DNA from: Schizochytrium sp. TIO01
Taxonomy: Eukaryota; Sar; Bigyra; Thraustochytrida; Thraustochytriidae
Direction: 5' to 3'
DNA: 64,000 bases
NCBI GenBank assembly: GCA_004764695.1
Contig: SMSO01000031.1
Span: 1,176,600-1,240,599, forward strand
The position numbers and the translations under genes are program-made. Positions 9,656 through 54,382 of this stretch are shown here, one piece after another. Numbering within the stretch: position 1 is the stretch's first letter; every line of letters starts with the position of its first letter. The notes under the pieces are model-generated. The model worked only from the letters and a program-made list of their open reading frames with translations. It was not told the origin of the DNA and did no database searches.

Positions 9656-12600
9656 ATGGCGGAGCCTTCCGGCGGCTCGAGCTCCTCGCCCCTGGCACCC
9701 CCAGCCTCCATGGCTGCTGCTGGCCCCTCCAGCTCCACTCCGCAGGGCTCGTTCGTGCTCGAAGCGAACCCAATTAACAGTGGCAACAGCAACAGCAACA
9801 GCACTAACGCTAACTCCGCAAGCTCCGGCAACAGCATAAGTAGTGGATCTAATTTGCACATGCACCATCATCATCATCACATGCACCACCATAATATTGC
9901 CCAAAGCGGCGTTTCTGCCCGTTCGCAGGGCAGAAGCATCCCAGTACGGGCTATTCACCATCTTCACAGCACCCTCGAAGACGATACTTCCTCCTCGCAA
10001 ATCCACGCCTCGAATCCCAATTTTGCAGCTCCAAATTCAACCCACAACTCCGCTCCAAATCTTGCTGGGAATTCCCCAAACCCCTCAGCAATATCACCGA
10101 CACCAAGTTTTCAGTATTACACAAACTCCACATCATCTTCATCGACGTCTGCACTGCAAAACTTCTCAGCTTCATCTCAGGCCGCTTCATCCTTGAACAA
10201 TCCATCTTCCGGACACTTGCCTGGCTCCACAAGCACAACAAATTTTGCCAACAACACAGGCAATGCCGGGGTTTCAGGCGCTACCATTGTCAGTTCGCCA
10301 GCGACGAATGTGAACAATACTGGGGTTCCAACGATGGCGTCGACGACAATGACACCGAATGCGGCGATGCTGCCGGTTCCGCCCTCAACTGCATCATTAC
10401 CATTGTCGTCCTCATCTTCATCTTCGTTCTCTTCTGCCGCTGCCGCTGCTGCTGCTACTGCTGCTGCTGCCGCTGCTGCTGCAAATGTTTCAGGTGCTGG
10501 TCGTCGAAGCGGTAATCCTTCGCCCGTGGCAGGCCGCAAGTCACCCCGAGGATCGCCGCGAACGTCGCCGATGCCGCGAACCTCCCCAGCGCACGGGAGG
10601 TCTGCCTCTCCTCTGTACGTGAGCAGAACTTCGCCGAGGGCCTCGCCCGTGACTGCCACGGCTTGGAGTGGTCTGACTAGCTCCGGCGCTTCTCGCAATA
10701 AAAGCCCCCATCATCACGTCAGTGGAAATAGCAATGGCAGTGGAGGCAGTAGCAGCAACAACAGTAAGTCTGCGTTTAACAAGGTCAAACCTAAAAGAGG
10801 TCAGGCAATCACTCCGCAAGGCAACGCGGAACTGCAACAAATCCTGCAATCTCCGGATTCCAGCGCCTTCTCGGTGCCACAGGCACGAACAATCTCGGCG
10901 TCAACGGGGACGCCGACCGCCTCGAGAAGGTCCTCAAGCAGGAGCCCTGTATTAGTCTCTGGCGCGGCTCGCTCGAGGCTCTCACCAAGTAACAAGGCTT
11001 TCGGCACGTCTGTTTCGGCCTCTGCAGCAGCTGCTACTGCGACTTTGGCAAACTCTTCTTCTTCTTCTTCTTCTTCTTCTTCTTCTTCTTCTTCTTCTAC
11101 AACACCGACACCAACTTCAATTTCAACCTCACAGGGCAAAATCTCTGCAAGAGCTCTGTCGCAGGCGCCCCCATCTCCTTCGGTTTTGAGCACGTCGAGC
11201 GTCGTCTCTGCAAAGCCGAGCTACCAGCGGCAGGATCCCACAAGTCGAGACCTCGAGTTTCTTCTGCGAGGCCGTGACGGTGAAGGGCGTGCGGACGCAG
11301 CGCCAGTCGATGATCCCGGCTTCGGTAGCGACAATGAGCTTATGATGTATTCATCAACAAGCTTTGACGAGCACGGGCACAGACGAAGACCCTCGAGTTC
11401 TGGGTCGACAGAACCACCTGCAGTTTTTGCAACATATCAAGATCAGATGGGAAGTCAACGTGGTATGCATACCTCGGGAAGACCTAAGTCGTGTACGGGG
11501 TCCTTTTCGCGTCGCATGGCGTCTCCAACTTTTGAGGCTGCAGACAGAGCGAGATTGCATCAACTGCAGCACGCAGACAGTATTAACAGCATCAACAGCG
11601 CAAATATCAATAACAACCAGGTGCAAGATTATTTTACGCAACAGCCGCATGGTACCACTACAGCAGAAACAAAGTATGCTGAACTCTCATCTTCATCTTC
11701 ATCATTGTCATCATCGGCGTCCATATCCTCTTCGACAGCACCAAGCCCTGCAAACTTTGATCAACTACCTCTACCTATTCAGGGATCCCAACAAATTGCA
11801 ACTCAAGGACAGGCACAACATCGCGGACGTGGTCAGCTCAGTATGCACCCGCGCATGCGCTCCAATTCGCTGGACTCACCGCTCCGTGCAAAAACTGGAC
11901 GTGGGAAAATAAACGCAAGTCAGAGCCAAAATCAAAACATGGGTTGGACAGCGAATGCCCAGCAGCAGCTGCAACAGGCATCAGCACGCCGCCAGCAAAT
12001 CAAGCTCAATCAACAGCATGCGCTTCAAATGCAGCTGCTCGAACATCAGCATAATCATCAAATGCAGCAACGTCAGATTATGCAGCAAGAGTCAGGTGGT
12101 GGGGACCAAATGCTGATGGGTTCAGCAATACCCCCCACCAGCACAGCTAATGAGTCCCTGCGGTCCGGGCCATTTGCTGACGTAGATGAACTTACACTGG
12201 AGGAGATTTTTGAGTACGAACGTCGTCTTCACTCTCGTAAAGCACAACTCCTTCGGGAACGCGTTTTTGCTTCCCAACCTCAGGGATCTACATCACAGCA
12301 CGGATCTGATCTGGTTCATGTTGACCCAGGCATGTTGCAACGTACCCGGGAGTACGGAAGTATGTCCTCTCAAGAGTTTGAAGCCCTTATGGAAATGGAT
12401 TACCTTGCGGATCAAGCTCTTGGAGGCCATCCATCTACTCTCCATGCTCGTGATCGCTCCAATAGTGGAAATTGTATTCTTGACGACATTGATGACGCAT
12501 ATATTGCAGGCCCTATGGATTTCGACGATGGGGAGATGTATGCTGACATCCCGGACGGAGCTCGTGCTCCTAATGTAAAGATGTTTCGTTCATGTGATCG

Positions 12601-13072
12601 GAACGCCTCTGGGTATATCTCACCAGGTTCAATGGGCTCCGCAACCACACCGGTATCGGTCGAACTCGAAGGAGATACAGTTGAAGAATTACGTAACAAG
12701 ATTAGCGAGGGGTTTAGCAAGAATCTTAGTCGTTCTCCAGGCAACATTTCCTTTGTTAGCCGCTTAGCTGTCAAACTCGACTCCCGCCCTACTGTAGCAA
12801 GACTCAAATCACCTTCATCGAGTCAAGTGGAAGCTATGCGTCACCCTATCGAGACCAACACATTGTCACCCGAGCGTTCTAAAATAATTGGCAGCCTTCG
12901 CAGTCCACGTTCTGCCTTCAGTCGTGCTCAGAAGAACGAAGGCGTCATCGCGGGGTTTGGAAGTGTCTCATCTGTTTCCTCATCCTCTTCATCGAGGTTG
13001 TCTGCATCTCAGCCCCAACAGTCTGCTCAGCGTAAAGTTTTACGCACGCAGCGGAGCACAGGCGTACAATAA
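9656..13072 (+). CDS. Large Ser/Ala/His-rich low-complexity protein, 1,138 residues
   Basis: I do not recognise a catalytic or folded family domain. The frame is one uninterrupted exon starting at an ATG with a good context (CAGCATGGC). The first two thirds are low complexity: a His-rich run near residues 68 to 80, a poly-Ala run near 260 to 280, a cluster of SP/TSP motifs near 294 to 328 (for example GSPRTSPMPRTSP) and a run of about 20 Ser near 465 to 482 encoded by (TCT)n. A Gln-rich, probably coiled segment (QQQLQQASARRQQIKLNQQ) lies near 770. Residues about 841 to 872 (ADVDELTLEEIFEYERRLHS) look like the only conserved helix and may be a docking segment. The last 150 residues are Ser-rich and basic. 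Proline-directed kinases are plausible modifiers. It is probably a disordered cytoskeletal or regulatory protein. Confidence 0.75.
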   Translation: MAEPSGGSSSSPLAPPASMAAAGPSSSTPQGSFVLEANPINSGNSNSNSTNANSASSGNSISSGSNLHMHHHHHHMHHHNIAQSGVSARSQGRSIPVRAIHHLHSTLEDDTSSSQIHASNPNFAAPNSTHNSAPNLAGNSPNPSAISPTPSFQYYTNSTSSSSTSALQNFSASSQAASSLNNPSSGHLPGSTSTTNFANNTGNAGVSGATIVSSPATNVNNTGVPTMASTTMTPNAAMLPVPPSTASLPLSSSSSSSFSSAAAAAAATAAAAAAAANVSGAGRRSGNPSPVAGRKSPRGSPRTSPMPRTSPAHGRSASPLYVSRTSPRASPVTATAWSGLTSSGASRNKSPHHHVSGNSNGSGGSSSNNSKSAFNKVKPKRGQAITPQGNAELQQILQSPDSSAFSVPQARTISASTGTPTASRRSSSRSPVLVSGAARSRLSPSNKAFGTSVSASAAAATATLANSSSSSSSSSSSSSSSTTPTPTSISTSQGKISARALSQAPPSPSVLSTSSVVSAKPSYQRQDPTSRDLEFLLRGRDGEGRADAAPVDDPGFGSDNELMMYSSTSFDEHGHRRRPSSSGSTEPPAVFATYQDQMGSQRGMHTSGRPKSCTGSFSRRMASPTFEAADRARLHQLQHADSINSINSANINNNQVQDYFTQQPHGTTTAETKYAELSSSSSSLSSSASISSSTAPSPANFDQLPLPIQGSQQIATQGQAQHRGRGQLSMHPRMRSNSLDSPLRAKTGRGKINASQSQNQNMGWTANAQQQLQQASARRQQIKLNQQHALQMQLLEHQHNHQMQQRQIMQQESGGGDQMLMGSAIPPTSTANESLRSGPFADVDELTLEEIFEYERRLHSRKAQLLRERVFASQPQGSTSQHGSDLVHVDPGMLQRTREYGSMSSQEFEALMEMDYLADQALGGHPSTLHARDRSNSGNCILDDIDDAYIAGPMDFDDGEMYADIPDGARAPNVKMFRSCDRNASGYISPGSMGSATTPVSVELEGDTVEELRNKISEGFSKNLSRSPGNISFVSRLAVKLDSRPTVARLKSPSSSQVEAMRHPIETNTLSPERSKIIGSLRSPRSAFSRAQKNEGVIAGFGSVSSVSSSSSSRLSASQPQQSAQRKVLRTQRSTGVQ
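11050..11100 (+). repeat. In-frame (TCT)n microsatellite coding poly-Ser
   Basis: A run of TCT codons inside the Ser-rich gene codes for about 16 to 18 Ser in a row. Its length is likely to vary between strains without breaking the frame. Confidence 0.9.
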
Positions 13073-13664: not shown

Positions 13665-16040
13665 ATGTGTCGTTTGTGCTGCATCCTGGCAGCGTTGTTG
13701 TTACTGATTTCAACAAGTGTAGCTGCAACATCCCAGAACGGAGCCCAAGAAGTTGTGGGCCCCTTGACTAGTGTCGACGATGTCAAAATGCAGCAAATTA
13801 AAGCGTTGCAAGCAGCAGCAAATCTTAATCTTAAACGCACAAAATTTCACCTTGAACTCGTGAGTCCGTCTTCAGGCTCACAGAATGTCAGGAGTGAGTT
13901 ATCTGAGGTGGTTTTCGCATTTTCCAACGTTTCCATAGCTGAAGGAGCACCAACACCAGAGAACCCAATACTCATGAACTATATAGTAGAGCAAGCACGA
14001 TTTTTTGCAGAGCAAAGTGAAAATGCTGGCCAGAAAACCAATTTTACAGACGGGAACGCAAGCCCCAGCACTAATTTTACAAAAGCTACGTTTGCATACA
14101 AAAAGAATATGTGGCTTAAACTTGATGAAGTCAAAGACGGGGGCAAGCTAGGTCTAGTTACACAGCACAGTCTAAAACTAGAAAATCTTTGGTTTTCTAT
14201 GGAAAAGGAACTTTTCAAGATTCACATTGCTTTTAATTTAACAAAGGGGCTCAAATATGATCACACGTATAAATTGGAGCTTTCCGACGCTGCTTTTCAG
14301 GGACTAAATAGGCCTGATTTAAGACTTAGTGACTGGCGCTTTTCCACTGAAACCAAACCAGACGATCCTGGGGCGAACACGAATGTTGAAGTTTCCCGAG
14401 TCCAAGTATATGGGATAGGAGTGTTTATGCTTGATGTTGGAGGCGTGGATCTTCGCAAGGGCCTCTTCAATGCAGATCTACAACTCTTTCTCCTCAAGTA
14501 TTACCTTGACTTTGACAATGTCGAGACAGCTCGACGCGAGGCGATGTATGCTAACCGTACATGCAAGGATGCGCAACATGGCGAGAGATTCCAGTATTTA
14601 CATGACGAATCTTCTGATTCACTCTTATCCAAATTTAATTTTATTAACACTGCAACAAAGACAGTACCGGAGCTAGTATTTGCTCATGAGGGCCTCGAAG
14701 CTTTCGACCACTATCGAGTGCGGTCCTCATGGACATTTAGTCCCAAGGTGGCAAACTATCCTTTCCAGGACCAAGACATGGTGATTCAGCTCGAAATCGC
14801 TGGTCAGTCTGTTACGCGTGAGCCCACTGCTGTTCTTTGTGTTCTAGAAACATTTTCTGGCTTTGCACAGAATCTGTCATCACTAAGTCTTGTTGAAGCT
14901 GACACAAGGATTGGCCACGCTACATATACGAGCAGCTTTACAGTTTCAGAGCAGCGCCGCTGGCCACCTCTGTCTGGAAATTTCAAACCTCCTTATCGGT
15001 TTCCCCACGATGCAAACGTTGCACGTCAACCGATGCGTGGTTCTTCTCGGCTTCATTGGATCATAAGTCTGCACAGGCCACCCATCATCGGGGCGTTGGA
15101 GTTAGCCCCAGCACTCTTTGTCGCTGCGTCTGCGCTCGTTTCTTATTTCCTGCCAGTCTCCGAATTACGTTCACGTCTTACCACCTGCACAACTTCTTTG
15201 TTGGCTGCCGTGGTTCAGCACTCTTCTTTACGAAGCCGCATTCCAGAAAGAGCAGCTGTCACCAATGCTGACTTGGCAATGCTGGTAGTGTACACTCTGA
15301 TTTTACTGTCTGTCGTGTCGACAGTTATTGTTCTTGTTGCAATTCATCATCGCCGGTGGTCCATATTTGCTGAGAGGATCAATACGATGTTGCGTACATT
15401 TGGCATCATGTCACCCCTCCTGTTCTTAGTTTTCCCACTTGGTGGTAGTCGTGACGTGTCAACGTGGTTTGCTACGCTATTTTCAATCGCTCTTGGCACA
15501 TACTTTCTTCATGCATGCATATGGGGTGGGGCAAATAATTCGCTTCTCATCCGTGATGGAATTTCTTCATGTAATGTCTGGCTACGTCGGCTTTGCCGCC
15601 GATCTCCAAATGTTGATTACAACTACGCCCCTTTGAATGTGCTCAAGAACATGGAGGTTAATATGTGGACAGCGACGGAGGTAGCAATATGGATCGAAAC
15701 GTTGATTTTGCCAAGCTCTACGGAGGCAGATAGAAAACGCTATGCCGACGCATTTTTTGCCGAACGGATAGATGGCCCTGTTTTACACCGTCTTGATCTG
15801 AGTGCTGTAAGAAGTTTGCGAATTCCTTTAGGTCATAGTATGCGTATTCATGATGCAATTGCAGATTTAATGAGAGAGCAACAGAATCACGCATCTCAAT
15901 CTGTGACTACTAGTATTGACGAAGATGATATAGATGCCGAGGACACCGAAGAAGATCAATTGGTAGAGATCCGTAATTTGCAAGCACGCTCGCGTGAAAG
16001 AAACAACTCCTCTAACGGAGTTGAAATGATCATTAGATAA
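13665..16040 (+). CDS. Pentameric ligand-gated ion channel-like receptor with Big_5-like and SAM domains
   Basis: This 791-residue membrane protein reads as a receptor channel. I start at the ATG at 13665 because it opens a classic signal peptide (MCRLCCILAALLLLISTSVA); the longer frame begins at a TTG. Residues about 60 to 230 resemble a bacterial Ig-like Big_5 fold (LELVSPSSGSQNV ... YDHTYKLELSD ... DWRFSTE). Residues 243 to 470 match the beta-sandwich ligand domain of pentameric channels: GIGVFMLDVGGVDLRKGLFN, and ANYPFQDQDMVIQLEI at the place of the Cys-loop, without its two Cys, as in prokaryotic members. Membrane segments follow at about 473-496, 501-521 (pore-type LTTCTTSLLAAVVQHSSL), 536-560, 579-592 and 598-620. 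Residues about 665 to 737 form a SAM domain (MWTATEVAIWIETL ... FFAERIDGPVLHRLDL). Several N-glycosylation sites (NFT, NLT, NLS) sit outside. Ligand and ion are unknown. The channel call rests on pattern, not alignment. Confidence 0.72.
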   Translation: MCRLCCILAALLLLISTSVAATSQNGAQEVVGPLTSVDDVKMQQIKALQAAANLNLKRTKFHLELVSPSSGSQNVRSELSEVVFAFSNVSIAEGAPTPENPILMNYIVEQARFFAEQSENAGQKTNFTDGNASPSTNFTKATFAYKKNMWLKLDEVKDGGKLGLVTQHSLKLENLWFSMEKELFKIHIAFNLTKGLKYDHTYKLELSDAAFQGLNRPDLRLSDWRFSTETKPDDPGANTNVEVSRVQVYGIGVFMLDVGGVDLRKGLFNADLQLFLLKYYLDFDNVETARREAMYANRTCKDAQHGERFQYLHDESSDSLLSKFNFINTATKTVPELVFAHEGLEAFDHYRVRSSWTFSPKVANYPFQDQDMVIQLEIAGQSVTREPTAVLCVLETFSGFAQNLSSLSLVEADTRIGHATYTSSFTVSEQRRWPPLSGNFKPPYRFPHDANVARQPMRGSSRLHWIISLHRPPIIGALELAPALFVAASALVSYFLPVSELRSRLTTCTTSLLAAVVQHSSLRSRIPERAAVTNADLAMLVVYTLILLSVVSTVIVLVAIHHRRWSIFAERINTMLRTFGIMSPLLFLVFPLGGSRDVSTWFATLFSIALGTYFLHACIWGGANNSLLIRDGISSCNVWLRRLCRRSPNVDYNYAPLNVLKNMEVNMWTATEVAIWIETLILPSSTEADRKRYADAFFAERIDGPVLHRLDLSAVRSLRIPLGHSMRIHDAIADLMREQQNHASQSVTTSIDEDDIDAEDTEEDQLVEIRNLQARSRERNNSSNGVEMIIR

Positions 16041-16268: not shown

Positions 16269-18566
16269 TTACTGAAATGTCTGAGACGTGTCCGCAGCTG
16301 CTAGAAGTCTGTCCATACGTGGAAGTTGCTCTTCATCGGGGACTGGCTTACGCAGGTTAGGGGAAAGCTTGAGAGAATTGACGCCGCCGCGATCATCACC
16401 AACCAAAAGAATGGGCGCAACAGTGGAGAAAGCAAGATGTGTCAGCTTAGCACGCTTGACAACCTTTTGCTCGCAGAGGGGTTCATGCTTATTTTCGCTA
16501 AGATCAAATACGTGTACCTTGCCATCGCTAGTCACTGCTGCGAAAACAGTCGATGAGTACGGAGCCCAGGCCACTTCTCCAACCGGGTTTCCAAGGTCAA
16601 AACTCATGATCGGGTGTGGGAGGTTGTGGTCCCAGAGTTTTACTGTCCAATCAGCAGAGCACGAAAGGAAGACTCGAGGGTGGAATGGGTTCCACGCTAC
16701 CGCGTAGACAGCCATGTGGTGCCCTTCATAGGTTTGCAAGTACTGGCCGCTGTACGACTTGCTGCATTTTGCAATCATGCCCTCCTCTGTGCCCACAAGG
16801 AAGAGGTGCTCGGATTTAGTGTTAAAGGCGAAGCAGCATCCGCCCGCGAGGCCTGACAGAGTGGCATCCTCGTCAGCTTCGTCCTTGTCATTCAGCATTA
16901 GCTTCAGTTGCATCATAGGCTCCATTTTAAGGGAGGACTTTGACATGGACCAATTAGCAACCTGACCGTCTGAACTAATTGAGTAGAAGCTTGGTTCCTT
17001 AGCAACTTCCTCTTCTGTCCACTTCACTCCATAAACAGGGTCTGAATCTGTGTTTGCAGAATAATTGAAAAGTAAATAGATATGAGAGTAAATAAATATT
17101 CGAGCAAATTGCCCACGCACATTGACGAGATAACGGGTTAGTACATGTGTCTGTCGTTTTCATCTGGATGTGTAATCGGTGAAATAACCTCATATTATGT
17201 GAAACTTACGTTTGCCTGTCTTGATTGTAGAAATGTAAATCGGTTTGTTAAGTTTGCTGCGTACGTCAAAGACCATAACAGTACCATCGTAGCAGCCTAC
17301 TGAGAGCAGAGCACATCGTGCTGACTGGGGATGGAAATCTACAGACATCACACCGGATTCTGTTGTGAAAGAGTACTCCGGAGCAGATGTGTTCTTTAGT
17401 GAATAACAGCACACCATACCACTGCCCTGTCGCATAAAGTCATAACTTCCATAGCCAACGGCGAAAAGGTCTGGGAGCGCGGGATTCCAACAAACAGCGG
17501 TGACCTGCTTGCGCTTGACGCGGTCATGTGTGAACCGCCACAGCGGCAGTAGACTTCCTTCGCCATCTCTGAACTGATCACTTTGATCCTCCCAGTACTT
17601 ATAGTCTTCATAAATCTCCAACTCGGCATTCTGATTTACCATGCGCTCAAGAATCTTGAGCGACTTGCTCATATCCTCTCCGTGAACAAGATCGCTTTCC
17701 TTGCTTGATTTAGCCTTGTCCTCGCCAATACCGCCTTCGACAGTATCATATTCGGAGATAGAGGATGAAGTCATTGACCGACCATTCTTCTTTTTCTTTT
17801 TCTTTGCCGCTGCGTTCATGATTTCCTGGTCCTTAATGTTCTCAAGAAACTTTGACACGTAAAGGTCATAAATCTCCCATTGTGTCACGGAGTCCTGATA
17901 GTGTCGTAGTTCAGGCGGTTTGGTGCTTACACCACGATTCTTTTTCGGATTATTAAAGGTCTGTGCTGCGCGATCACTGTAGTTGAACTGATTTTTTGTG
18001 ATTTCCTTGGCTGGCGCTTGACTCTGGCTAGGTGTGTTCTGCGCGATAGGATCCTGGGTAATAATGTCTCCATCGACGCCAGGGATTCCACCAACTGCTG
18101 CTGCAGCGACTGCAGTGGGCGATGCCAAGCCCGCATTTGTGTCTTCTTCATCATCCTCCGCAGCTTTGCGTTCCTGTTCACGGCGCTTGTCGAGTGCCTC
18201 GCGCTCCCAAGCCTGTTGAGTCTGCGCAATTTGACTTTCCTTGTGCAATCTGCTGCCTCGCATGTCCAAATGCACCATAAGCTCTTGGTACTGAAGGGGG
18301 GGCTCCTCTACAAACTGGGAGCGAGAGTAATCATATTTTTGCGAGTTCGTCGGCACGTTAGGGTTCTTATTGCGCAGAACTATGGGCTCCGCAGGCGTGT
18401 CGAGCTCCTCAGCAGAAAGTTGAAGCTGCTCTGCAGGAGCAATCCACTCCACGCGTGGTTCTTCGTATCCCATACCCCAATCTCCACCAGCATCGTTGTA
18501 GTCTCCCCCTTCGTCGGCGTCGTCGTCATGCTTGGGCTTCTTGCCCTTGTCCTTGCCCTTGGCCAT
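16269..18566 (-). CDS. DNAI1: Axonemal outer-arm dynein intermediate chain (DNAI1/IC78 type), two exons
   Basis: This WD-repeat protein sits at the base of the outer dynein arm and anchors it to flagellar doublet microtubules. Exon 1 is 18566-17210 and exon 2 is 17047-16269, joined over a GTAAGT...ACAG intron to give 711 residues; the junction reads TIKTGK-H-SDPVYGVKW. The N-terminal part is charged, with a coiled segment (AWEREALDKRREQERKAAED). The motif NQFNYSDRAAQTFNNP is the typical DNAI1 signature before the WD region. The propeller begins near residue 330, with blades such as VTAVCWNPALPDLFAVGYGS, GVMSVDFHPQSARCALL and AVAWNPFHPRVFLSCSADWT. The ATG at 18566 has a Lys-rich, flagellar-type start. 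Its presence implies a motile flagellated stage. The two-gene look on simple translation is only the intron. Confidence 0.94.
17048..17209 (-). other. Intron of the dynein intermediate chain gene
   Basis: The 162-base intron reads GTAAGTTTCAC at its donor on the minus strand and ends in AACACAG. Joining leaves a phase-1 His codon and restores the conserved TGK-H-SDPV segment. Confidence 0.9.
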
Positions 18567-35351: not shown

Positions 35352-36441
<1,090 letters not shown>

Positions 36442-51760: not shown

Positions 51761-54382
51761 TCAGGGCTTGGGGAAATTCGCTGAAACGTGCATTGGTCTT
51801 CGTTTCGTTGATTTTATCAAGCTTTTTGCGGTAGTAACGGGTGATTTTTCTGCACGGTGTCTTCGATCTTCTTGGTCCATAATCCATTGTAAAAGCATTG
51901 ACTCGTCTAACGAGCCTAACATTTCATCCAGATTGACGGACGTATGCTGATTAGCTTTAGTATTTGCTTCCTGTACAGCACTACCATTGCTCTGGGGATC
52001 CTCTGATCTCTCATCTCTATCTCCTGGCTTACCGCTTCCGGGCATAACAGATGAATTTGATCTGCTATTTTGTAGTGTATTGCGCAAAAGTTGTCTACCT
52101 TGGTCTGAAGTACTCCGAAATGCTAAATGCTTGCGGTCCTTGTGCAAAAGCTCCTGACAGTGTGAGCGCAGTTCAAAGTTTCGATTGATTTCCTTCTCTG
52201 CGGATTTATGACGTGCACGAACAATAAAGCTGGTTTCACTATCTAGGTCAGGCACTGTGTATGCGACGAGGGCTTTTAAGCCAATGACAAGATGCTCGAC
52301 GAAAACAAGCATCATTACCTTTTCCCATGCAGTCCAGTTTCCGAACCATTCCTTTACGAACTGGGACTCTCGGAAAATTAGGCCAACAAGAGCAACATTT
52401 GTCATCACACCGAGATAGCCTACAGTCTCAAATGCGACTACCCAAATACCGATGCCTGAGACGCGGCGACCAATACTACGTCGCTGAAATCGAAGCATCT
52501 TTAGAGCATCAGTCTTCATCTCCACCACGTTGTTCAGTAGAGCCATAAGCGGAGCGAGGGGGAAAACTGCCGCAAAAAGGGTAACTTGACTGAATTGGAC
52601 CCACATTTCCAAATATTCAGGGAATAAACTTTCTTGTGGTGCTAAAACAATATTAGAGCGGCCAACCGTAGAAAGCTTTGAGCCATTTTGATCATTATCC
52701 TGCTCTTCCGAATTTTTTTTATCAACACGTACTAGTCCAACAGCACCAGCGATAATCGTCGCAATAGGCTTTCCTACCTCCAAAACTTGCCCAAGCAGTT
52801 GTTGAACTGTTAGAAGACTAGCGATCGTGCTATAGAGCTTGGTCATGTCATGTTCAAGAAATGCAATGTACAACGGCGAAACATGGTAGTTGAAGAACTG
52901 AAGCGTTACAAGCTTTACAATACGCGCATTTTCGTGAGCACTTTCGGTGCGGTGCATCTCCAGGTTTGTAAGCCACTCTGCCAAATAAGTGTTCAGGGTA
53001 GAGAATAGTTGAATGAAGCAGATATAAGCGATCATCGGCATGTGCTGAGCAACTTGGTACAGACCACCATACTCTCTAAGCGATGCTTTTGCTTCTCGAT
53101 CTAAGTATAGGAATCCGGTCATGACGGCGCAAGCTGCTAGTGAAAGCCCGGTGCAGACAACAAATGAGACGACAAGAGCAGAGTAATGCTTGTAGGACGG
53201 GTAAACCCAGCGGTAGGCGTCGGCAGCTGGGTGGTATTCACGTTTCGAGGCTTCCTTAAAGGCAGGCCTTGTTTCTTCATCGTAGCCTTCGTATTCAAGT
53301 GAGTCCCAATGAAACGCAAGTGTTGCTTCTCGACGTTTCCAATATTCAGTAAAACCAGTAGACCAAAACGCCAGAAATCCAAGATATAACAGAGTGCTGA
53401 GGTTGTCAAAACCCTGGGACGAGACCTGTGCTTGGAACACAAAGATGCCAAGAATGGCAGCGGGGAGCAACCAGAAGGTATATGACCCTAGAAAAGCAAA
53501 GTAAAATCCACGTGCCTGTCCAAAGTATTTCATTACCTTGTCCAAAGGCTGGGGGCCGATCGACATTATCCAGCTATTGTAAAGTTCGTCTACTTCATCT
53601 GAGTTATGAAGTGGAACAAGGTGCATGACTACACGAATTGGGCGAGTAGTAAGCACTTTTTGTCCAAAAACTATGTTCCACATGGAGAAACCCTTGCTCT
53701 GTTGTTCTTGCTGCTGACGTGATTCAGACCCCGTATCGTTGGAGTCTGAGGAGCTGGAGTTCCCTTTGTTTGCATCTTCAGGTTCACTAGCTGCGTCTGG
53801 GTGCTCAAAGTCATTCGCGAATGTACGCAAACCTTGCGCACTTCGGATAAGAGGGTCATTTGGGATTAGCTGCTCCAGGAGCATGAGACGCTCTCCAGAT
53901 GAAAAGAACTTCTTAGGATCATCTGCGTTGGCGAAGTCAGCCTGGCGAGCAAGCGTGAATTTTGCTGTTTTCCCAATTTCCTTGCCTTCTTTCAGAGGCT
54001 TTCGAAGTTTGACACGTTCTGCTTGTTTGAACAATGTTTCGTTTTTTCCTCGCAATGCATACGCTACAGCTCCCTTTTTGCTCGAACAGACCTCACGAAC
54101 TTCAATACCATTTTGCTGCAGGCGGTCGAGTACCTTTGCTGCAAGTCTGTGCTTATTTATAGTGGCCTCACCGAGGTGTGATCCTTCATCATCTTTGTCT
54201 TTGTTCTGGCTGAGCTGCGACCTACGATCGGAAGCGCCCGACAGCCGTCGGGATCTTGATTCGTCACCCTTTGGGTCCACACCCGGGGCGAACTCGAGGA
54301 CGAAATCGTCTGAGTTTGATAGCGCTCTACCGCTCTGCGTCCGCTCTGGCTCGGACTTGACCACCTGAAGAACGGACTTCAT
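51761..54382 (-). CDS. Anoctamin/TMEM16 family protein (ANO10/ANO8-like)
   Basis: Anoctamins are calcium-activated lipid scramblases or chloride channels that work as dimers. The 873-residue frame starts at an ATG (54382) and is intact. The first 260 residues are a cytosolic domain with charged Ser-rich linkers. The membrane part follows (AFLGSYTFWLLPAAILGIFV onward). Family marks include FFNYHVSPLYIAF in helix 6, PEYLEMWVQFSQVTLFAAVF then PLAPLMALLNNVVEMK in helix 7, and VEHLVIGLKALVAYTVPD in helix 8. The two Glu of EYLE match the two helix-7 calcium ligands of animal TMEM16 proteins, so calcium gating is likely. A motif like VEHLV...K...AY.(I/V)PD is closer to ANO10 and ANO8 than to ANO1. 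The C-terminus is charged and polar. Whether it scrambles lipids or conducts ions cannot be read from sequence. Confidence 0.93.
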   Translation of the reverse strand: MKSVLQVVKSEPERTQSGRALSNSDDFVLEFAPGVDPKGDESRSRRLSGASDRRSQLSQNKDKDDEGSHLGEATINKHRLAAKVLDRLQQNGIEVREVCSSKKGAVAYALRGKNETLFKQAERVKLRKPLKEGKEIGKTAKFTLARQADFANADDPKKFFSSGERLMLLEQLIPNDPLIRSAQGLRTFANDFEHPDAASEPEDANKGNSSSSDSNDTGSESRQQQEQQSKGFSMWNIVFGQKVLTTRPIRVVMHLVPLHNSDEVDELYNSWIMSIGPQPLDKVMKYFGQARGFYFAFLGSYTFWLLPAAILGIFVFQAQVSSQGFDNLSTLLYLGFLAFWSTGFTEYWKRREATLAFHWDSLEYEGYDEETRPAFKEASKREYHPAADAYRWVYPSYKHYSALVVSFVVCTGLSLAACAVMTGFLYLDREAKASLREYGGLYQVAQHMPMIAYICFIQLFSTLNTYLAEWLTNLEMHRTESAHENARIVKLVTLQFFNYHVSPLYIAFLEHDMTKLYSTIASLLTVQQLLGQVLEVGKPIATIIAGAVGLVRVDKKNSEEQDNDQNGSKLSTVGRSNIVLAPQESLFPEYLEMWVQFSQVTLFAAVFPLAPLMALLNNVVEMKTDALKMLRFQRRSIGRRVSGIGIWVVAFETVGYLGVMTNVALVGLIFRESQFVKEWFGNWTAWEKVMMLVFVEHLVIGLKALVAYTVPDLDSETSFIVRARHKSAEKEINRNFELRSHCQELLHKDRKHLAFRSTSDQGRQLLRNTLQNSRSNSSVMPGSGKPGDRDERSEDPQSNGSAVQEANTKANQHTSVNLDEMLGSLDESMLLQWIMDQEDRRHRAEKSPVTTAKSLIKSTKRRPMHVSANFPKP

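Follow-up and report, generated by a model that had tools for sequence, protein, structure and literature searches.

A predicted Cys-less pentameric ligand-gated channel subunit of Schizochytrium with a candidate fifth membrane helix and a C-terminal SAM domain

We analysed a 64,000-nucleotide stretch of Schizochytrium sp. TIO01 contig SMSO01000031.1 (hereafter the window), in which a reading frame at 13665-16040 (+) runs through 791 codons with no stop among them. Judged from its sequence, the encoded 791-residue protein, P0001, is a Cys-less pentameric ligand-gated channel (pLGIC) subunit that probably carries its own cytosolic assembly domain, a reading to which we assign a probability of about 0.6. 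Homology to pLGICs extends over both the ligand and the pore domain, SAM homology follows, and this order is common to two diverged relatives. Behind a hydrophobic leader, the chain passes through an N-terminal and a ligand-type domain into five hydrophobic segments, one of them the pore helix, and ends with a SAM domain and an acidic tail (Table 1). An earlier note on this DNA had proposed a pentameric-channel core and a SAM domain in one protein; the four sequence motifs it quoted are all present in the frame, and its proposal was upheld by agreement between profile methods and by the two clearly diverged relatives, which align in the same order.

Table 1. Features of the P0001 gene, in window coordinates
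Feature	Position	Strand	Basis
Putative signal peptide, residues 1-22	13665..13730	+	Hydrophobic stretch 4-22, Kyte-Doolittle 2.38; cleavage site not predicted
N-terminal extracellular domain, residues ~56-237, Ig/Big_5-like at best	13830..14375	+	Big_5 and hhalign
pLGIC-type extracellular ligand domain, residues 238-471	14376..15077	+	hhalign against 18 cyanobacterial pLGICs
C300, ligand domain	14562..14564	+	Invariant column, family alignment A1
Pro-loop YPFQDQ, residues 365-370	14757..14774	+	hhalign pairs YPFQDQ with YPFDAQ
C392, ligand domain	14838..14840	+	Invariant column, family alignment A1
M1, residues 472-497, with Pro482; pre-M1 Arg471	15078..15155	+	Kyte-Doolittle 2.10; aligned to bacterial M1
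M2 pore helix and flank, residues 502-527 (-2' to 23')	15168..15245	+	Pfam Neur_chan_memb 481-563
M3, residues ~534-562	15264..15350	+	Kyte-Doolittle 2.79; Pfam match
M4, residues ~572-594	15378..15446	+	Kyte-Doolittle 1.57; aligned to bacterial M4 up to 589-591
Predicted M5, residues ~600-622	15462..15530	+	Kyte-Doolittle 1.51; helix in very-low-confidence AlphaFold models
SAM domain, residues 667-735	15663..15869	+	SAM_1 match
C-terminal tail, acidic then polar, residues 736-791	15870..16037	+	Sequence; stop codon 16038-16040

A Neur_chan_memb search of the Schizochytrium genome (64 Mb, 37 contigs) scored seven candidates, of which one reached E 0.001 or better. Whole P0001 as query recovered its own gene and, in addition, a single weak hit (E 0.166) confined to SAM. 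Next to a universal 18S motif in this assembly stand an exact match to primer LABY-A and a match to LABY-Y with two mismatches, so that a labyrinthulomycete source is probable. Just downstream of the gene, on the opposite strand, lie two adjoining WD40-matching frames (16269-18566, -), by eye exons of a dynein intermediate-chain-like protein, for which Pfam gives WD40 and other beta-propellers only. Upstream lies a 1138-residue frame (9656-13072, +) rich in Ser and Asn, in which Pfam found nothing with E of 0.001 or below. Elsewhere in the window, about 273 tandem copies of TATT (35352-36441) produce long mechanical open frames that read as YLFI repeats.

At least three relatives of P0001 were found in a protein search (7996 candidates scored), namely P0002 (99% identical), P0003 (48%) and P0004 (37%). 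P0002 being near-identical to P0001, the family comprises three distinct sequences, P0001, P0003 and P0004, which are collinear in alignment A1 over the ligand domain, M1-M4, M5 and SAM. P0003 as predicted is without most of the N-terminal domain, and the P0004 sequence stops inside the SAM domain. Among the matches listed for a profile search with the family (7995 candidates scored) only P0002 and P0003 appeared, P0004 being missed, and a search with M1-M3 of P0003 gave only P0003 itself among 563 candidates. The number of relatives is thus a lower bound, and others may exist elsewhere in eukaryotes. Viral contigs yielded no match to the P0001 family or to bacterial pLGICs, and plasmids yielded none to GLIC.

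Pfam Neur_chan_memb matched residues 481-563 of P0001 with E 7.6e-6 and 26.8 bits in hmmscan (gathering cut-off 28.1), and with 28.8 bits, above the cut-off, in a six-frame search of the window. The hmmscan scores of the four family members were 26.8, 26.7, 23.6 and 14.4 bits, none of which reaches the gathering score. NCBIfam LIC gave E values of 2.9e-5 in P0001, 4.2e-7 in P0003 and 0.053 in P0004, with scores far under the model cut-off of 280. The Pfam score by itself was rejected as proof of a pLGIC, because cyanobacterial frames about 508-525 codons long, without a Pro-loop motif according to a script, score nearly as high (up to 26.1 bits in L008, most 19-22). The GLIC relative reached only 21.9 bits with the same model.

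For profile-profile comparison, a bacterial profile was built from 18 cyanobacterial pLGICs, comprising L005 and 17 of 30 loci. The remaining 13 loci had been dropped before the test because a suitably placed [FYWHI]Px[DEN] motif was missing from them; of the 18 sequences one, L041, is truncated by a stop codon. Aligned to this profile with hhalign, P0001, P0003 and P0004 together gave a probability of 98.4 over residues 250-589 (97.9 in an earlier comparison against seven bacterial sequences). The ligand domain by itself reached a probability of 94.5 and a score of 53.8, as against a maximum of 19.5 in 100 column shuffles, and the pore domain a probability of 96.1 and a score of 56.5, as against 21.7; 51 control segments from ten other window proteins, among which four are membrane proteins, reached no more than 19.2. 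The beta-sandwich ligand domain that the earlier note had recognised from the sequence is thereby supported, as are its pore helix and helix 3, which also lie within the Pfam match. With P0001 as a single sequence, M1-M4 still gave a probability of 96.3. The ligand domain on its own then reached no more than 20.1, with a score of 27.9 (no control above 16.1), and its homology therefore depends on the family profile. Neither the N-terminal nor the SAM piece matched the cyanobacterial pLGIC profile in hhalign.

Among solved structures, P0001 matched best a pH-gated chloride channel (9rgm, E 0.0014) and the pore domains of nicotinic receptors, and the best matches of the family profile were the chloride channel (E 2.8e-4), followed by nicotinic alpha-4 and glycine receptors. 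AlphaFold2 models of full P0001 (four sequences) and of residues 237-640 (five sequences, including the GLIC relative) had mean pLDDT values of 35.5 and 41.5; the structure check for a channel fold was therefore not passed, and the models were discarded as structural evidence. In Foldseek the best 50 of 1191 matches (E up to 10) to the 237-640 model were all pLGIC subunits, including GluCl, glycine, ELIC, GLIC, 5-HT3 and GABA-A structures, a result consistent with a pLGIC and no proof of one, because query TM-scores were 0.17-0.24 and the alignment included the GLIC relative.

Six of the seven positions tabulated as conserved across the pLGIC superfamily (Jaiteh 2016; PMC4795631, cited here from excerpts) are kept in P0001, namely Y365, P366, W433, R471, P482 and P527. 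The beta-9 Trp (W433), the M1 Pro (P482), the M2-M3 Pro (P527), a basic 0' residue (R504) and 9' L513 are all present; P0004 is without the M1 Pro. Y365 and P366 are invariant in alignment A1, and the Pro of the F/YPxD loop occurs in 100% of the Jaiteh 2016 set (PMC4795631). The pre-M1 Arg, found in 94% of that set (PMC4795631), was placed at R471 by hhalign; MAFFT by itself put the Arg of the GLIC relative elsewhere. The Asp of the F/YPxD loop is replaced by Q368 in P0001, by Asn in P0003 and by Gln in P0004, and the usual Asp-Arg gating salt bridge would consequently be absent. This Asp is not absolute in the published set (93%, with Glu in 3%), and nematode channels with a shifted YPFE motif indicate that departures at this site occur (PMC4795631). 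There is no Cys between C300 and C392 in P0001 and hence none beside residues 365-370, in agreement with the earlier claim that the Cys pair is missing from the Cys-loop site. C300 and C392 are themselves invariant in the ligand domain of the family, and it is possible that they form an alternative disulfide. As a separate observation, 13 of the 30 cyanobacterial loci (L049-L060, L064) matched pLGIC profile A2 at E 1e-33 or better and had no ordinary Pro-loop according to the script, in contrast to the Pro being reported as universal in the superfamily in the excerpts of Jaiteh 2016 (PMC4795631).

We numbered M2 by setting P527 as 23', the GLIC-type M2-M3 Pro, according to the hhalign alignment. 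P0001 then has R at -2', S at -1', R at 0', T at 2', T at 6', L at 9', V at 13', R at 19', R at 21' and P at 23'. The corresponding residues of P0003 and P0004 are K and R at -2', T and A at -1', and R and K at 0', and Arg occupies 19' and 21' in all three distinct sequences. The lack of a -1' Glu, together with basic residues at both ends of the pore, predicts an anion channel, and an anion-selective pore is in our judgement the probable outcome. A channel built in the same way but selective for cations appears considerably less probable. Selectivity is hard to read safely in distant pLGICs, the rules on charge having come from animal receptors and perhaps not carrying over to such proteins; moreover, -4' is acidic in all three sequences (E, D, E), and the best solved matches include nicotinic, cation-type pore domains, with scores about equal to those of chloride channels. 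Against this stand the residues at -2' to 0', 19' and 21' just described and the identity of the top solved match, a chloride channel. We regard as improbable a third reading, in which the protein is a pLGIC-fold receptor that does not conduct, and an outside ligand alters SAM clusters inside the cell in a metabotropic fashion. Such a use would suit the loss of the gating Asp from all three sequences and the attachment of a signalling or assembly domain. However, M2 is strongly conserved, with nine invariant residues in a row (LLAAVVQHS) in alignment A1, and the polar 2' and 6' positions, Leu 9' and Pro 23' match conducting channels. Besides the predicted anion channel, the window encodes an anoctamin (TMEM16) protein (51761-54382, -; Pfam E 4e-102).

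A second hydrophobic stretch lies between the M4 motif and the SAM domain in all three distinct sequences (Kyte-Doolittle 1.51 in P0001, 1.89 in P0003, 2.59 in P0004), and both AlphaFold models, at very low confidence, show it as a helix. The earlier note was silent on this helix, as it was on the missing F/YPxD Asp. Among the 18 bacterial profile sequences, to which this count is confined, 17 end after M4 and the other, L041, is cut short before M4. We consider it likely that the stretch forms a fifth span, M5, after M4, which would place the SAM domain in the cytosol; without a fifth span SAM would be extracellular, because an ordinary pLGIC ends outside the cell. Topology is nevertheless uncertain because M4 looks short, with about 17 hydrophobic residues by eye ahead of GGSRD, and M5 of P0001 is only moderately hydrophobic (Hessa sum +2.05). 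These two features would agree with a classical four-helix pLGIC, in which residues 600-622 do not span the membrane, or the first M4 segment is amphipathic and cytosolic, and SAM faces the extracellular space or the lumen of a vesicle. N-glycosylation sequons precede M1 in six of nine cases in P0001, eight of eight in P0004 and two of four in P0003, a distribution counted in favour of the main reading; the other two in P0003 fall in the SAM part, and a sequon NNS directly follows M5 of P0001 at 624, both of which would also suit four helices. We think that arrangement unlikely, since M5 is more hydrophobic in P0003 and P0004, M4 aligns to bacterial M4 through the Pro motif, the flank after M5 is basic (five K/R against two D/E in residues 622-660) and SAM domains are normally cytosolic or nuclear. 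Finally, an artefact in which two adjacent genes are read as a single frame was rejected and carries almost no weight: the frame is free of stops, and the same joint occurs in the 99% relative and in two distant sequences from other sources.

The SAM domain that had been noted behind the membrane part was recovered by SAM_1 in full P0001 (residues 667-735, E 4.7e-5, 24.1 bits, cut-off 23) and more strongly in the isolated piece (E 9.4e-7, 29.6 bits). P0002 also scored above the cut-off; P0003 fell below it (19.9 bits, E 0.00099), and P0004, the sequence of which ends within the domain, was at chance level (14.0 bits, E 0.069). The nearest solved SAM domains were those of SHANK2 (E 0.0065), MAP3K20 and DGK-delta for the P0001 piece, and of Scm and polyhomeotic for the family profile. 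In animals SAM is a module that often joins proteins into clusters. Several of the nearest solved domains polymerise, those of SHANK and DGK-delta being polymer formers, and there are also many SAM domains that do not polymerise. At least 32 SAM matches, P0001 included and several within one frame, were counted in the genome, so that SAM partners may exist. On balance, clustering or anchoring driven by SAM has, in our estimate, an even chance of being correct.

The domain ahead of the ligand domain was less readily assigned. Pfam Big_5 gave E 0.076 and 14.2 bits (cut-off 23.6), over profile positions 65-105 only, the second half of the model. Of 13 cyanobacterial Big_5 domains picked for comparison, two were dropped as cut off at contig ends; in hhalign against the other 11, the N-terminal part of the family gave a probability of 40.3% and a score of 27.9 over the last 39 columns (shuffles at most 17.4), that of P0001 by itself 10.6% and that of P0004 0.2%. 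The Big_5-like Ig domain described earlier is a weak candidate on these scores; an Ig-like fold is plausible.

We propose that five copies of P0001 would probably build one channel, a homopentamer being suggested by the single pLGIC gene found in the genome. A putative small extracellular ligand would bind the ligand domain at subunit interfaces, and movement would pass from the Pro-loop through pre-M1 Arg471 and the M2-M3 loop to open the M2-lined pore, through which anions could flow (basic -2', 0' and 19', no -1' Glu). The fifth helix would bring the chain back to the cytosol after M4, and the five SAM domains below each pore might bind one another, other channels or other SAM proteins, and the receptor could in this way be clustered or anchored with no additional scaffold. 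Classical pLGICs have their C-terminus outside the cell and expose the M3-M4 loop as their cytosolic part, and clustering for this reason needs separate scaffold proteins. If the proposal is true, a SAM-bearing pLGIC would represent receptor clustering independent of gephyrin, rapsyn or SHANK-type scaffolds, and a conserved M5 and SAM would be another clustering route, in an organism without nerves. Our most far-reaching suggestion, a five-helix pLGIC lineage with a cytosolic SAM domain as its own scaffold, where SAM polymers or contacts between SAM domains would collect the channels in patches although the cell has no synapses, is tentative and on present evidence doubtful.

Published pLGICs include those of protists, stramenopiles among them (Jaiteh 2016, excerpts; PMC4795631), and of diatoms (PMC11085791, excerpts). 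No pLGIC with SAM was found in the open-licence literature searched, in line with the earlier note, and an earlier description elsewhere is possible; among the open-licence matches listed, none by title fitted a pLGIC with a fifth helix or a cytosolic C-terminus, and of those listed on protists and thraustochytrids only the pLGIC surveys cited here are relevant. The view that this is an undescribed system thus needs dividing, since the channel family is known and the combination of fifth helix and SAM appears to be new within that literature. P0001 falls into a gap left by Jaiteh 2016, in which terminal parts beyond the two signature domains were discarded and a study of domain architecture was said to hold the prospect of much insight (PMC4795631, excerpts).

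Compared with known systems, P0001 resembles DeCLIC and the bacterial pLGICs with a PBP-I, MCP-N or Cache domain in front (Tasneem 2004, excerpts; PMC549065) in having an extra folded domain before the ligand domain. It departs from those channels in that its front domain resembles Ig at best and a further domain follows the membrane part. Two cyanobacterial pLGIC frames, L065 and L066 (794 and 751 residues), have large N-terminal extensions and end after M4. With Cys-less pLGICs such as GLIC and ELIC (Jaiteh 2016) P0001 shares the ligand domain and M1-M4, a Pro-loop without the Cys pair, the pre-M1 Arg, the M1 Pro, a basic M2 0', Leu 9' and the M2-M3 Pro. It differs from them in the change of the F/YPxD Asp to Gln or Asn, the predicted M5 and the C-terminal SAM, and in its family two Cys at other sites of the ligand domain are invariant. 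Animal anion-selective Cys-loop receptors have, as P0001 does, basic 0' and 19' residues and no -1' Glu, and such receptors (glycine, GABA-A, GluCl, 9rgm) are among the best-scoring solved pore domains, alongside nicotinic ones. Unlike them, P0001 has no Cys-loop, no Pro-Ala-Arg at -2' to 0' and no long M3-M4 cytosolic loop, having an extra C-terminal domain instead. The SAM domains of SHANK, DGK-delta and polyhomeotic, which are among its solved SAM matches, sit in soluble scaffolds or enzymes, whereas that of P0001 is part of the channel itself.
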